This document shows positions 4,578-13,604 of a stretch of DNA of 33,858 bases, in pieces; within the stretch, counting starts at the first letter, position 1, and the number at the start of each line of letters is the position of its first letter. The stretch spans positions 1 to 33,858 of the forward strand of contig CAMYKB010000031.1 in the NCBI GenBank assembly GCA_947258875.1. The letters run 5' to 3'. Source of the stretch: an uncultured Gammaproteobacteria bacterium (GTDB taxonomy: Bacteria > Pseudomonadota > Gammaproteobacteria > CAMYKB01). The translations under genes and the position numbers were made by a program. Below the pieces are notes generated by a model that was given only the letters and a program-made list of their open reading frames with translations, ran no database searches and was not told the origin of the DNA.

Positions 4578-4859
4578 ATGCCGCATGTAAAGCTGGCTAA
4601 TGCGATTCGGCGCCTCACCTGTGCCAGAGGTATGCCGGTTTTATTAGTACTGATCCCGACATTTTTTTATCCTTATGCGGTTATCTTGGTGCTATTGCTT
4701 GTTACCGCGTTATTGTATTTTTGGGATAGCTTTAGTCTCGCGCCCAAGGAATTCGCAAAAGAACAGCGTGATCAGCGCGGCGCGGCATTGCTGGTATTCG
4801 CTGGCGCTTGCGTGCTGATTTGCGCCAGCGTGCTGGTGTTTTTGTTTACTCGAAACTAG
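4578..4859 (+). CDS. Small two-helix membrane protein, function unknown
   Basis: 93 residues from the ATG at 4578. Two hydrophobic helices lie at roughly 20-47 (MPVLLVLIPTFFYPYAVILV...) and 69-91 (AALLVFAGACVLICASVLVF), joined by a charged loop KEFAKEQRDQRG, ending FTRN. The frame is open back to an ATG at 4458. However, the extra 40 residues are poor in character, span a GC hairpin and contain an isolated CPRC pair, so the shorter start is preferred. No family recognised. Its stop codon overlaps the stop region of the oppositely oriented xthA by 4 bp (4856-4859). Confidence 0.55.
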   Translation: MPHVKLANAIRRLTCARGMPVLLVLIPTFFYPYAVILVLLLVTALLYFWDSFSLAPKEFAKEQRDQRGAALLVFAGACVLICASVLVFLFTRN

Positions 4860-5623
4860 ATGTTGAATTCCGCTACCACTGGTGCGTGATCGGACGGCCG
4901 CTCCAGTTTGCGCGGCTCTATATCGACGATGCTGCTGGTGCATTTCTTCGCCAGCGGCGTGCTGGCCAGAACCAGGTCGATACGCAGCCCGCGGTTACGG
5001 CGAAACCCCGCCGCGCGATAATCCCACCAGCTGAAGACATCCTCCTGCTGATCAAATTTGCGGAAACTGTCTTCAAAACCGAGGCTCAGGATTTTCTGCA
5101 GCGCCTGCCGCTCGGCTGTGCTACACAAGATTTTCTCATGCCAGGCTTCGGGGTCATACACATCGCGGTCCTCCGGCGCAATATTGAAATCCCCCAACAC
5201 CACATAGTTTGGATGCCGCTTCATATCGGCCGCAATGTATGATGTGACCTTTTCCAACCAATCCAGTTTATAGGCAAATTTTTCCGAGCCCACTTCCTGC
5301 CCATTGACGACATACAGATCCAGCACGCGTAGCTTGCCAATCGTTGCCCCCAGGATCCTGCGTTGCGGATCATCGAGGTTCGGCACATCAGTAATCACCT
5401 CGCTGGCTTGCTGCTTGCTGATGATGGCAACACCGTTATAGGTTTTTTGGCCCGAATAGACGACGTTATAACCGGCTGCCTCAATGTCCGCTACGGGAAA
5501 CTGGTCGTCGGTTTGTTTGGTTTCCTGTAACGCCAATACATCGGGTTGATTATCGGCAAGCCAGTCGAGCACATGCGGCAAGCGCACACGCAGGGAGTTG
5601 ACATTCCACGAGGCTATTTTCAT
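4856..5623 (-). CDS. xthA: Exodeoxyribonuclease III / AP endonuclease
   Basis: 255 residues from the ATG at 5623-5621. A TTG immediately before it is an unlikely start. The protein cuts DNA 5' to abasic sites and degrades 3' ends in base-excision repair. The EEP-nuclease motifs are in order: MKIASWNVNSLR (metal-binding Asn), DVLALQETK (catalytic Glu), GVAIISK, VLGDFNIAPED (Asp/Asn pair), RIDLVLAS and SDHAPVVAEF at the C-terminus (Asp-His). Length is normal for the bacterial family. The upstream SH3 gene stops only 3 nt before this ATG (TAA-ttg-ATG), so the two are almost certainly co-translated. Confidence 0.95.
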   Translation of the reverse strand: MKIASWNVNSLRVRLPHVLDWLADNQPDVLALQETKQTDDQFPVADIEAAGYNVVYSGQKTYNGVAIISKQQASEVITDVPNLDDPQRRILGATIGKLRVLDLYVVNGQEVGSEKFAYKLDWLEKVTSYIAADMKRHPNYVVLGDFNIAPEDRDVYDPEAWHEKILCSTAERQALQKILSLGFEDSFRKFDQQEDVFSWWDYRAAGFRRNRGLRIDLVLASTPLAKKCTSSIVDIEPRKLERPSDHAPVVAEFNI

Positions 5624-5626
5624 CAA

Positions 5627-6316
5627 TTAGTCCAGGGCAAAACCAGGGAAGCGCTTACTCAACCGTTTTTTGACGAGCCGCATGCCGAGGACCAGGCCCG
5701 CAATAAAGGCGGCGACGGCAAACGCAAGATAAAACCATCTGTAGTCCGCTCCGGCCTGATCAACGGACAGGGCTCGAGCCGGTTTGGCTTGCTGGACCTG
5801 GGTATTGGGCAGGGCTTGAGCTACCTTGTCTTGTTGGGCTGCCTGCCCGATCTTCTCCAGTTCTTTGGCTTGCTGATCCAGGGTTTTCTGCGCCTGCGCA
5901 AATTGTTGTTGTGTCTGGATCAGTTTTTCTTTCAATTGATTAATTTCGGCATCGGTTTCGGGTTTAGACGCATTGAGCTGGTTGCGCAGGCGAATCAACT
6001 CTTGCTCCAGTGCTTTTTTTTGCCCCTCCAGTCCCGCGACCAGCAGTTTGGCAGGGGGATCGCTGACAATGAATGCGCTTTTCACCCAACCGGTAGTTGC
6101 ATCGTCGAGAATAACTTGTGCAAACGCGCCCTTGCGTTCCAGAATTTCGACAGCCTCACCGCTTACCAGCACCTTGATACGCTCGCTACTGGTATTGGCA
6201 TCAGCATACATGCCCAGCAGTAAACGGTCAGTCACATAACCATCTTCGGCCGAGGCCGCTGCTGCAATAAACATAAGAACGACTATCAGGGTGAGTTGAT
6301 TCGGACTTGGTTTCAT
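5627..6316 (-). CDS. SH3-domain protein with coiled coil and C-terminal membrane anchor (TIGR04211/YgiM type)
   Basis: 229 residues. Signal peptide (cut likely after AAASA), then a bacterial SH3 domain of about 25-90 (YVTDRLLLGMYADANTSSERIKVLVSGEAVEIL, ending GWVKSAFIV). A Gln/Leu/Glu-rich coiled coil runs from about 95 to 160, then a linker, and a C-terminal transmembrane helix (WFYLAFAVAAFIAGLVLGMRL) with a basic cytoplasmic tail. This is the architecture of the gammaproteobacterial YgiM/TIGR04211 proteins, which are envelope proteins of unclear role. Its 5' end overlaps the stop of prlC by 4 bp, so prlC, this gene and xthA form one leftward unit. Confidence 0.85.
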   Translation of the reverse strand: MKPSPNQLTLIVVLMFIAAAASAEDGYVTDRLLLGMYADANTSSERIKVLVSGEAVEILERKGAFAQVILDDATTGWVKSAFIVSDPPAKLLVAGLEGQKKALEQELIRLRNQLNASKPETDAEINQLKEKLIQTQQQFAQAQKTLDQQAKELEKIGQAAQQDKVAQALPNTQVQQAKPARALSVDQAGADYRWFYLAFAVAAFIAGLVLGMRLVKKRLSKRFPGFALD

Positions 6317-8352
6317 GCCGCTAATCCGCTGTGCCGTAATAATGCATCGATGCTGGGTTCACGCTGGCGGAAATTCCTGAACAACACCATCGCCGGCTCA
6401 CTGCCGCCACGCTCAAGTATGGAATGCAGAAATGCCTGTCCGGTTTCCTGATTGAACAAACCCTGTTCTTCAAATGCTGCAAAGACATCCGCCGATAATA
6501 CTTCGGCCCATTTGTAACTGTAGTAACCTGCTGCATAGCCACCCGCAAAGATATGTGAGAAACCATGCTGGAAACGCACAAATTCCGGTGGTTTTATAAC
6601 GGCGACCTCATCGCGTACCTCGTCCAGAATTTTTTCAACCCTTGCCCCCTGCGTAGCTTGGTATTCAAGATGCAGGCGGAAATCAAACAATGCAAATTCC
6701 ACTTGGCGTAGTGTTTGCAGACCAGCATTAAAATGCTGGCTTGCCAGCAGCTTCTGAAACAGTGTTTCAGGGATACAATCACCCGTTTCGTGGTGGCGCG
6801 CAAACAAATCCAGCGCCTCGCGCTGCCAGCACCAGTTTTCCATAAACTGGCTGGGCAATTCCACCGCGTCCCATTCCACACCACTGATACCTGCCACGCT
6901 CGGATAATCCACCAGCGTCAACATGTGATGCAGGCCGTGCCCAAATTCATGAAACAAGGTGATCACTTCATTATGGGTAAACAACGCCGGCTTACCATCG
7001 ACAGGAGGCGTTCCGTTGCAGGTCATGTAGGCCACCGGTATTTGCACGCTATCGCCGCGGCGCATGCGCGCGACGCATACATCCATCCATGCGCCACCCC
7101 GTTTGTGCTCGCGCGCATATAGATCCAGATAAAACTGCCCGCGTAGCCGGCCTTGTGAATCACTAATTTCATAAAAACTCACATCGCTGTGCCAGCTATC
7201 GACTCCTTTCTTTTCACGAATAACAAGCCCATATATACGCCCCACCAATTCGAACAAACCCTGTAATACCTGATCAACCTGGAACCAGGGCTTCAGTTCT
7301 TCTTCTGAAAAGGCATAGCGGTGTTGTTTGAGTTTTTCACTCACATAGGGCAAATCCCAGGACGCGATATCATCAATGCCCAGCTGCACGGATGCATATT
7401 CACACAGTTCTTCTAGTTCTTTCTCTGCTTTGGGGCGTGCGCGGCTCGCTAAATCGCGAAGAAAGGTCAACACGCTCTGCTCCGTCTCAGCCATCTTGGT
7501 TGCCAGAGAGCGCTCAGCGTAGTTTGCATAACCCAGCAATTCTGCGGCTTCATGGCGTAGTGCCAATATCTGCTCCATTACTGCGCTGTTATCCCACTGG
7601 CCCGCATGTGGCCCCTGGTCCGAGGCGCGCGTGTTGAATGCCGTATAAACCTCTCGCCGTAACTCACGGTTATCCGCGTAAGTCATCACGGCATGATAAC
7701 AAGGGTATTCGAGGTTTATCAGCCAGCCGTCCTGGCCCTGGTTATGTGCAGCCTGGCGCGCCATAGCCAAAGCGCTTGCCGGTAAGCCCGATAATATCGC
7801 CTTGTCAATAACAGGTTTTTTCCAGGCATTGGTGGCATCCAGAACATTTTCTTCGAAGCGTGAATGCAGGCTTGATAACTGTTGCTGTATCTCCTTGAAG
7901 CGCGCCCGTTGAGTTTCGGGTAAGTCAACGCCGCTTAAGTGGAAGTCGCGCAAGGCATCCTTGATGGCTTTTTGTTGTGCTACTTCCAGCGAAGTGAATA
8001 TTTCAGCTGCAGCGATGGATTGATAGGCAATGAACAGGCCTTCATTCTGCCCCAAATCGGTGGCATATTCGCTTAGTTTCGACAGGCAAACATTGTAGGC
8101 TGCTCGCAGATCATCATTATTCATCACGGCATTGAGATGCCTGACAGGCGACCATACTCGTTCCAGTCTATCCGCCATGTCTTCCAGCGGTTCCACAAAC
8201 GTCTGCCAGTCAAAACGACCCCCCTGCTCCAGCAACGTGCGAATTCGCGCCCGATTGTCGTTTAGCACACTATCAATCGCTGCTTCCACATGCTCGGGCC
8301 GTATTCTGCTGAACGCCGGTAGGGAATGGTTTTCGAGTAGCGGATTATTCAT
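6313..8352 (-). CDS. prlC: Oligopeptidase A (M3 family zinc metallopeptidase)
   Basis: 679 residues, the usual size. It is a cytoplasmic thimet-type oligopeptidase that degrades short peptides, including cleaved signal peptides. The zinc motif HEFGH is at about residues 468-472, followed by GLHHMLTLVDYPSVAGISGVEWD-type sequence carrying the third ligand Glu. The substrate-closing segment FAGGYAAGYYSYKWAEVLSADVF lies near the C-terminus, as in E. coli OpdA. The start MNNPLLENHSLPAFSRI matches the family N-terminus. First gene of the leftward prlC-SH3-xthA unit. Confidence 0.97.
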   Translation of the reverse strand: MNNPLLENHSLPAFSRIRPEHVEAAIDSVLNDNRARIRTLLEQGGRFDWQTFVEPLEDMADRLERVWSPVRHLNAVMNNDDLRAAYNVCLSKLSEYATDLGQNEGLFIAYQSIAAAEIFTSLEVAQQKAIKDALRDFHLSGVDLPETQRARFKEIQQQLSSLHSRFEENVLDATNAWKKPVIDKAILSGLPASALAMARQAAHNQGQDGWLINLEYPCYHAVMTYADNRELRREVYTAFNTRASDQGPHAGQWDNSAVMEQILALRHEAAELLGYANYAERSLATKMAETEQSVLTFLRDLASRARPKAEKELEELCEYASVQLGIDDIASWDLPYVSEKLKQHRYAFSEEELKPWFQVDQVLQGLFELVGRIYGLVIREKKGVDSWHSDVSFYEISDSQGRLRGQFYLDLYAREHKRGGAWMDVCVARMRRGDSVQIPVAYMTCNGTPPVDGKPALFTHNEVITLFHEFGHGLHHMLTLVDYPSVAGISGVEWDAVELPSQFMENWCWQREALDLFARHHETGDCIPETLFQKLLASQHFNAGLQTLRQVEFALFDFRLHLEYQATQGARVEKILDEVRDEVAVIKPPEFVRFQHGFSHIFAGGYAAGYYSYKWAEVLSADVFAAFEEQGLFNQETGQAFLHSILERGGSEPAMVLFRNFRQREPSIDALLRHSGLAA

Positions 8353-8425: not shown

Positions 8426-9400
8426 TTACGACAAGTAACCTAACCACAGAATATACGCCAGAAAACTGGCGGTCCCGGCAACACCCAATAATGATAGCAA
8501 CGCGCGTTTGCGGTGGCGCGAAACCAGGCCGCTTGGTGAGCCAGTGGCGAGGATAAACGGCAACCGCTTGTCCTGCGTTTCGCTCAAAGTGTGAAATGTA
8601 GATCCTGTAGCGTTCAGTTTATGGTGCTCTTTGGCCAGTATCTGCGCATCGCGACGCACACTGACCCATTCTTTTTCGTCCAACTGCCCATCTTTGTTGC
8701 TGTCATAGCGGCGGAGTAAAAAGGCCTCGTCACGTTTCCAGCTACGCAGGATAGCCGCAACGTCATGCGATAGATCGCCGGCATAATCGCTGCCGATGGT
8801 ATCGAAATGCCCCAGGGCATAGAGCTCTGTTCCACAGGCGATGCGCCGCTCCTGGTAACGGTAGCGGCCGACCCCCATGGACATATTGATACCCAGCGGC
8901 TTAAGCGGTACGGTTTCCGAAGCCCCTATTGGGCCTTCCGGCCATTGACTAGAGCCAAACCAGACATCTTGTGTCGTGGTATAAACTTGCGCGCTTTCGG
9001 GATCAATAATACAGGCGCCTGTATCATCACTCAGCTGAAATAATTCTGTGCTCGCGCCGCGGTCCAGTACCTCCCAGCCTGAGCGCTGCAACAAACGCGA
9101 AAACCAGCCCCCACCTATTCGGGCTTCGATTGTATAACTGTACCAAACACAGTTTTTACCAGAGAGTGGGGCCCTGATATCTGGCCCGGGTAACCAGTCT
9201 GCACGGCCTATAAGTTCAACATAGCCTTGAGCCGCGGAACGTATCTTTGACGTCGCTATGTCCTCGATCATGCGCGCGCGCAGCATGTTGCTGAACGCGT
9301 TGATCAACAACCAGATTGTTGTAGCCGTCAATACCAGCAGCGCAAACCAGGATAAACCTGAACCATTGGTTATGTAATTTTCTAGCCATTGCTGTAACAC
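8426..9400 (-). CDS. GIDE-domain membrane protein with an EF-hand calcium-binding motif
   Basis: 324 residues. An N-terminal membrane helix (about 17-36) and a C-terminal one (about 300-320) flank a cytoplasmic or periplasmic body. The middle shows the GIDE/DUF3137-like pattern (GYVELIGRADWLPGPDIRAPLSGKNCVWYSYTIE, a variable loop, then RYQERRIACGTELYALGHFD). This domain is shared with mitochondrial MUL1-type ligases but here lacks a RING. At residues 233-244 lies a canonical EF-hand loop (D-S-N-K-D-G-Q-L-D-E-K-E) with acidic or amide residues at positions 1, 3, 5, 9 and 12. lemA is immediately upstream, a common pairing. Function unknown; a Ca2+-responsive membrane role is inference. Confidence 0.8.
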   Translation of the reverse strand: MLQQWLENYITNGSGLSWFALLVLTATTIWLLINAFSNMLRARMIEDIATSKIRSAAQGYVELIGRADWLPGPDIRAPLSGKNCVWYSYTIEARIGGGWFSRLLQRSGWEVLDRGASTELFQLSDDTGACIIDPESAQVYTTTQDVWFGSSQWPEGPIGASETVPLKPLGINMSMGVGRYRYQERRIACGTELYALGHFDTIGSDYAGDLSHDVAAILRSWKRDEAFLLRRYDSNKDGQLDEKEWVSVRRDAQILAKEHHKLNATGSTFHTLSETQDKRLPFILATGSPSGLVSRHRKRALLSLLGVAGTASFLAYILWLGYLS

Positions 9401-9417
9401 GCGGGAGTACTGACGCT

Positions 9418-10008
9418 TCAGTTTGTGTTCGCAGGGTTATCCAGTAACGACTTGATATCAACATCACCGGTTTGTTCGGGCTTGAACTTTAATAGCTTGA
9501 AAGGTTTGAATGCAAAAAGTCGTGCCAGAAACACATCCGGGAATTGTTCGATACGGGTGTTATTGCGGGTCACCGATTCATTGTAAAACTCACGCCGGTC
9601 AGCAATGGCATTTTCGAGGCCACTGATACGTTGTTGCAGGTGCAGGAATTGCTTATCGGCCTTGAGTTCAGGGTAGTCCTCGACCTGTATGAACAGGCGA
9701 CCCAAGCCCTGCCTGAGGAAATCTTCAGCAACACCCAGCGCCTCGATATCATGATGTTGCTGTGCCAGCGAAACACGGCTGCGTGCCTGCATGACTGCTT
9801 CCAGGGTTCCCCGTTCATGCTGCATATACGCTTTACAGACCTCGACAAGCTTTGGTAACTCGTCATAGCGCTGGGTCAAGAGGACATCAATATTGGACCA
9901 GGCCTTACCGACATTGTGTTTTATCACTATCAGATGGTTATAGAGAATGACGGCATAGATGAGGATCATGAACACTACCGATATCAGCAGCATGCCCGCG
10001 ATTTGCAT
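9418..10008 (-). CDS. lemA: LemA family protein
   Basis: 196 residues. An N-terminal transmembrane helix (about 5-27) is followed by the LemA core: YNHLIVIKHNVGKAWSNIDVLLTQRYDELPKLVEVCKAY, then helical ...LEAVMQARSRVSLA, and an ENAIADRREFYNESVTRNNTRIEQFPDVFLA block with the invariant YN motif. The cytosolic part is an antiparallel helical bundle. Family function is unclear. The gene is 17 bp upstream of the GIDE protein and clearly in one unit with it, supporting a shared membrane-associated role. Confidence 0.95.
   Translation of the reverse strand: MQIAGMLLISVVFMILIYAVILYNHLIVIKHNVGKAWSNIDVLLTQRYDELPKLVEVCKAYMQHERGTLEAVMQARSRVSLAQQHHDIEALGVAEDFLRQGLGRLFIQVEDYPELKADKQFLHLQQRISGLENAIADRREFYNESVTRNNTRIEQFPDVFLARLFAFKPFKLLKFKPEQTGDVDIKSLLDNPANTN

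Positions 10009-10080: not shown

Positions 10081-13604
<3,524 letters not shown>

Follow-up and report, generated by a model that had tools for sequence, protein, structure and literature searches.

A conserved EF-hand motif in a LemA-linked GIDE-domain membrane protein of Gammaproteobacteria

The locus we investigated raises the question of whether a membrane protein encoded beside LemA carries a working calcium site and, if so, what such a site does there. The window, by which we mean the whole stretch of DNA analysed, comprises 33,858 nucleotides from an uncultured gammaproteobacterium. A first-pass annotation had described a GIDE-domain membrane protein paired with LemA, and this description holds: Pfam recognizes both products, the first through PF12483 (E 6.8e-9, 35.8 bits versus a cut-off of 23.6) and the second through PF04011 (E 1.3e-44), and LemA also matches the structure 2ETD (E 2.8e-25). 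The two genes are separated by 17 bases and are listed with their neighbors, and with the parts of the GIDE protein discussed below, in Table 1. The M3-family peptidase encoded downstream is presumably of the oligopeptidase A type. According to hydropathy and an AlphaFold model of the window protein (mean pLDDT 84.4), the GIDE domain sits between two membrane spans.

Table 1. Coordinates of the GIDE/EF-hand gene, its annotated parts and the neighboring genes in the window.
Feature	Position	Strand	Basis or remark
GIDE/EF-hand membrane protein gene	8426..9400	-	324 aa, GTG start; ORF and Pfam scan
EF-hand loop, residues 233-244 (DSNKDGQLDEKE)	8669..8704	-	coordinates calculated from the ORF start
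EF-hand cassette, residues 210-264	8609..8773	-	AlphaFold model: two helices (210-223, 225-232), then the loop and a third helix (242-264); absent in L193
PF12483-matched part of GIDE domain, residues 103-201	8798..9094	-	Pfam
Conserved post-EF-hand segment, strands 269-273 and 283-285	8546..8596	-	taken to close the GIDE fold
First membrane span, about residues 17-37	9290..9352	-	hydropathy and AlphaFold model
Helix 289-323, contains second membrane span	8432..8536	-	hydropathy and AlphaFold model
lemA, directly upstream partner gene	9418..10008	-	196 aa; ORF and Pfam scan
M3-family peptidase gene, downstream	6313..8352	-	
gyrB, upstream neighbor	10081..12489	-	
SH3-domain gene	5627..6316	-	
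Endonuclease/exonuclease-family gene	4856..5626	-	

The first-pass annotation had also claimed that residues 233-244 of the GIDE protein hold every ligand position of an EF-hand. This is confirmed: the segment DSNKDGQLDEKE, followed by W245, is a complete loop that fits the canonical pattern of D at position 1, D, N or S at positions 3 and 5, G at position 6, a hydrophobic residue at position 8, and E or D at position 12. The same pattern, which is of the PROSITE type, appeared in 153 of 200,000 shuffles of the window protein; a chance motif is ruled out by conservation across the family. The AlphaFold model predicts a helix-loop-helix in which helices 225-232 and 242-264 flank the loop, with pLDDT values of 82-92 in blocks from residue 211 to 260. 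The profile of the family matches EF-hand structures, troponin C among them, across the EF-hand segment. The Pfam EF-hand models nevertheless score the window protein below their curated cut-offs (16.8 versus 25.4 bits for EF-hand_1), and among eight other EF-bearing members scanned only one (L013) rose above the cut-off of a single EF-hand model; the motif is therefore easily missed.

Is the loop shared by related proteins? A homologue was present in 15 of 56 genomes (the window's own, which is among the 15, and 55 others of the same class), and all 15 carry the EF-hand loop. An alignment of 14 of these homologues served as the profile for wider searches, which recovered relatives from 95 of the 369 class genomes and, among named genomes, from 341 places, the best 80 being analyzed; a search of the named-genome contigs with a single sequence found no relatives, compared with the 341 found with the alignment. 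The fetched loci contain 188 distinct matching frames, 157 of them strong (E under 1e-60), and the canonical loop is found in 149 of these 157 homologues, most of which were retrieved with a profile that itself contains the EF-hand. The eight exceptions comprise one protein with glycine at loop position 7 that keeps all side-chain ligands (L163), two with a degenerate loop (L031 and L173), two without the loop (L193 and L194), and three incomplete frames (L047, L188 and L190). Counted by genome, 82 of 95 have the canonical loop; the script returned 83, from which we subtracted G283, whose loop belongs to a four-EF-hand protein that we take to match the profile solely there. The 12 genomes without it are G080 (the L163 protein), G068 (degenerate), G221 (loop-less), G072 and G136 (fusion proteins), G228, G334, G316 and G252 (short or broken frames), and G079, G121 and G361 (remote GIDE proteins). 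A sample of 398 genomes from the phylum yielded 14 matches in the same class and four weak ones in other classes (E 2.6e-4 to 9.9e-4), the latter all starting in the EF-hand region. As a control blind to the EF-hand, the Pfam GIDE model (PF12483) alone was run on 398 phylum genomes; 12 matched and 10 of the 12 carry the EF-hand, the other two being a GIDE-GIDE-LemA fusion and a short, stop-containing stretch under the cut-off.

For conservation position by position, we tabulated strong homologues (E under 1e-60) of 271-449 residues, leaving out fragments and over-long frames, and clustering at 70% reduced the 151 rows to 117. D233 is kept in 114 of 116 rows, position 235 is N or D in 114 of 116, position 237 is D, N or S in 114 of 115, and G238 and E244 are each found in 114 of 115. 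Loss of the ligands in relatives would have spoken against the first-pass annotation; nearly all relatives keep them. The mean relative entropy is 3.6 bits at loop positions 1, 3, 5, 6, 8, 9 and 12, versus 1.2 bits at positions 2, 4, 7, 10 and 11, and in the 117 rows the EF consensus positions rank among the most conserved of the whole protein, whereas the remaining loop positions vary. Such an alternation of conserved and free positions is typical of a working EF-hand. The pattern permitted Asp at loop position 12, yet all 149 canonical loops have Glu there, the residue that favors Ca2+. The alignments give good support for selection on the metal site, and metal binding by the EF-hand is very likely.

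The window protein is not an odd version of a single GIDE protein. A large gammaproteobacterial family normally has the EF-hand, with losses scattered among its members, and the idea that lone EF-hands in this family are degenerate as a rule was rejected, degeneracy being the exception (L031 and L173). In a tree built without the EF-hand columns, half of whose inner branches are weakly supported, the four proteins that lack an intact site (L031, L173, L193 and L194) are placed separately among EF-bearing members; the simplest reading of this tree is that the site was lost from an EF-bearing ancestor. In genome G034, which is a single contig, the gene (L016) is broken up over two short frames, possibly a recent loss. 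Another locus (L126, G180) holds three tandem GIDE/EF-hand genes at 1-552, 419-1486 and 1387-2418, all three encoding an EF-hand; the first is truncated at the locus edge, and the fetched stretch contains no lemA. Two metagenome-assembled records titled Klebsiella pneumoniae (L032 and L047) carry a GIDE/EF-hand gene. L032 clusters in the tree with other gammaproteobacteria, Methylohalomonas among them, and the Klebsiella record names may be wrong.

With respect to where the motif lies, the earlier placement has to be revised. The EF-hand had been assigned to the loop between the GIDE domain and the C-terminal membrane helix. In the AlphaFold model, strands 269-273 and 283-285 come after the EF-hand and before the last membrane helix, in a conserved segment that reads LPFILA in the window protein and RPFILS in the family consensus. 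In L193, which lacks the EF-hand, the PF12483 alignment reaches model position 152 of 160, whereas in eight EF-bearing relatives from the same scan it ends at 104-119; it ends at 110 in L194, which is also EF-less, and the Pfam argument for placement rests on L193. The model of L193 retains most of the predicted strands, including one just before the last helix, and has a low-confidence loop at the site where the cassette would be. Because the L193 alignment extends further and strands follow the EF-hand in the model, the EF-hand reads as a removable cassette inserted into the GIDE domain ahead of the final strands. As for the fold of the domain, Foldseek found nothing at E 0.001 or better for the model of the window protein, and a second-look alignment with model residues 48-287 returned many OB folds at Z of about 7-9.5, among them RPA (3dm3; Z 9.5, 84 residues, 5.2 A) and YgiW (1nnx; Z 8.3, 81 residues, 2.6 A). 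The same second look with the model of the EF-less L193 placed no OB fold at the top of the list. We consider a small OB-like barrel likely for the GIDE domain, with the OB-fold alignments taken as suggestive; the likeness to these OB-fold proteins is a resemblance to the model only.

The association with lemA extends across the family. Of the best 80 of the 341 named-genome loci, many being closely related (e.g., Stutzerimonas), 78 have lemA upstream in the same orientation; of the other two, one starts at a contig end (L033) and one is without lemA (L061). In a wider set, lemA is close by in 151 of 166 frames, and the 15 without a separate lemA include two copies of one GIDE-GIDE-LemA fusion as well as several contig ends, tandem arrays and over-long frames. 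Four loci (L061, L108, L151 and L191) have no lemA in at least 1.4 kb of upstream DNA. Members with a missing or degenerate EF-hand are found beside lemA (L193, L194, L031 and L173), so the EF site is not needed for the pairing. Other neighbors are less constant: among the same best 80 loci, the M3 peptidase gene follows the GIDE/EF-hand gene in 31, as it does in the window, and three have gyrB no more than 1.5 kb upstream. Genome G145 has two copies, an EF-hand copy right behind gyrB without lemA (L151) and an EF-less copy beside lemA elsewhere (L194). The fusions, L143 (G072) and L204 (G136), are single chains of about 760 residues that contain two GIDE stretches and a LemA domain and have no EF-hand. 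They lend indirect support to a physical interaction between LemA and the GIDE protein.

Charges flanking the membrane spans bear on which side of the membrane the domain resides, and free Ca2+ in the cytosol is normally low. The counts covered 150 of the 151 rows. Around the first span, windows of 12 and 15 residues contain more K and R on the side of the domain in all 150 proteins, and equal windows of 10 residues do so in 134 of 141, with one against and six ties. For the second span, 145 of 150 agree and five tie in unequal windows; the tail is shorter than six residues in 105 of the 150, and of the 45 longer tails 41 agree and four tie. The charges around the first span thus predict that the GIDE domain is in the cytosol.

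The explanation we favor, which we would put just short of an even chance, is that LemA and the GIDE/EF-hand protein constitute an inner-membrane complex with a state that depends on cytosolic Ca2+. The GIDE/EF-hand protein would span the inner membrane twice, expose to the cytosol a GIDE domain with the EF-hand cassette before its last strands, and form a membrane complex with LemA. A rise in cytosolic Ca2+ would fill the EF-hand, the cassette would fold or re-orient, and this change would shift the position of the GIDE barrel against the membrane and LemA. Computation supports this picture as far as a metal site under selection in a membrane protein linked to lemA, together with its position in the domain and charges compatible with a cytosolic location; in vivo Ca2+ binding, complex formation with LemA, the switch and a dimer are proposals that go beyond it. 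The canonical motif occurs once per chain in 149 of 149 homologues, none having a second EF-hand; because there is one EF-hand per chain, the lone EF-hand may pair between two copies of the protein. The first-pass annotation had suggested a possible Ca2+-sensing version of the protein; the conserved ligands make the metal-binding part of that suggestion very likely, and that the site senses Ca2+ in the cell rather than merely stabilizing the domain is what we infer.

The strongest rival is that the EF-hand is a structural site for Ca2+, or for Ca2+ and Mg2+, which is always filled and merely stabilizes the GIDE domain without any sensing. The near-absolute conservation of the ligands fits such a site as well as it fits a sensor, the model shows the cassette as a single, mostly high-confidence helical unit, and a single EF-hand cannot show the cooperativity of paired EF-hands. 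However, L193 is without the whole cassette and its modeled domain keeps most of its strands. Furthermore, if the domain is cytosolic, Ca2+ would be too scarce to keep a weak lone site filled, although Mg2+ could do so. We regard the structural reading as rather doubtful, if far from negligible.

Next in strength is the possibility that the domain is periplasmic and that the EF-hand senses or makes use of Ca2+ from outside, for instance in tethering the complex to the envelope. A lone EF-hand of low affinity would suit the millimolar Ca2+ outside, and the charges of LemA hardly decide the side: a first count with unequal windows gave 58 for a cytosolic location and 12 against, of 81, and equal windows gave a near even 33 for and 20 against, with 27 ties, of 80. 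The C-terminal domain of LemA has been predicted to be extracellular in a passage of one paper (PMC3905215), and according to part of another the homologous BAM/GIDE domain of human MAPL is located in the intermembrane space (PMC4457424). The charges of span 1, with 134 of 141 pointing to the cytosol and one against, make a periplasmic domain improbable. Two further observations touch on sidedness. If every GIDE unit of the GIDE-GIDE-LemA fusions crosses the membrane twice and LemA once, both kinds of domain would be on the same side. A periplasmic domain would be favored by a disulfide linking the conserved C84 and C130; 130 proteins have both cysteines, 14 and 6 have one, and one has neither, and the two do not co-vary (Fisher p 0.53). 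The least probable alternative by far is that the helix-loop-helix is a protein-docking element in which metal binding is incidental: the non-chelating W221, K222, W245 and A252 are just as conserved as the ligands in the 117 rows, and L031 keeps the tryptophans despite several lost ligands, but the changes tolerated at the chelating positions 3 and 5 stay Ca2+-competent.

GIDE, LemA and EF-hand are each known families. LemA is common, as are bacterial GIDE proteins, and we know of no function assigned to the pair. The GIDE/BAM proteins (PF12483), including the eukaryotic E3 ligase MAPL/MUL1, share the GIDE domain between two spans; the window protein differs from MAPL/MUL1 in that it has no RING, ends at the second span, and carries the EF-hand cassette in its domain. 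The E3 ligase function implied by the Pfam name was rejected, as the Pfam scan found no RING. Since the EF motif is under the Pfam cut-offs in most members scanned, automatic annotation likely shows just 'E3 ubiquitin ligase', which is misleading here. The main text of a paper on BAM/GIDE evolution contains no EF-hand, calcium or LemA (PMC4457424). Members of the LemA family (PF04011; 2ETD; MamQ) have in common an N-terminal span and a helical bundle, and MamQ was described in 2016 as the sole member of the family linked to a known process (PMC4902198); in contrast to MamQ, the LemA studied here is encoded with a GIDE/EF-hand protein, and it scores 64.3 bits versus a cut-off of 250 in the MamQ model. 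With EF-hand proteins such as troponin C, the polcalcins and the bacterial Asr1131 (PDB 9qsb), the window protein shares the canonical 12-residue loop and flanking helices; unlike these, it has a single EF-hand in a membrane-anchored beta domain instead of a soluble pair. Searches of open PMC papers listed no title or start of an abstract that names a GIDE/EF-hand protein, and the sole open PMC paper matching both 'GIDE domain' and 'LemA' has neither term in the available part of its main text (PMC12285602).

The conserved metal site in a shared gene pair gives a concrete entry to the function of the LemA-GIDE pair, which qualifies as a good candidate for a membrane complex under calcium control. 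The broadest reading, that a widespread gammaproteobacterial Ca2+ receptor faces the cytosol at the inner membrane, with an EF-hand grafted into a GIDE barrel and controlling LemA, is one that we offer tentatively, as possible rather than probable. The list of bacterial Ca2+ sensors is short, and the GIDE/EF-hand protein would add to it a membrane-bound and probably cytosol-facing candidate. If the reading is true, LemA gains a regulatory input, and the family would represent a new class of bacterial Ca2+ sensor.
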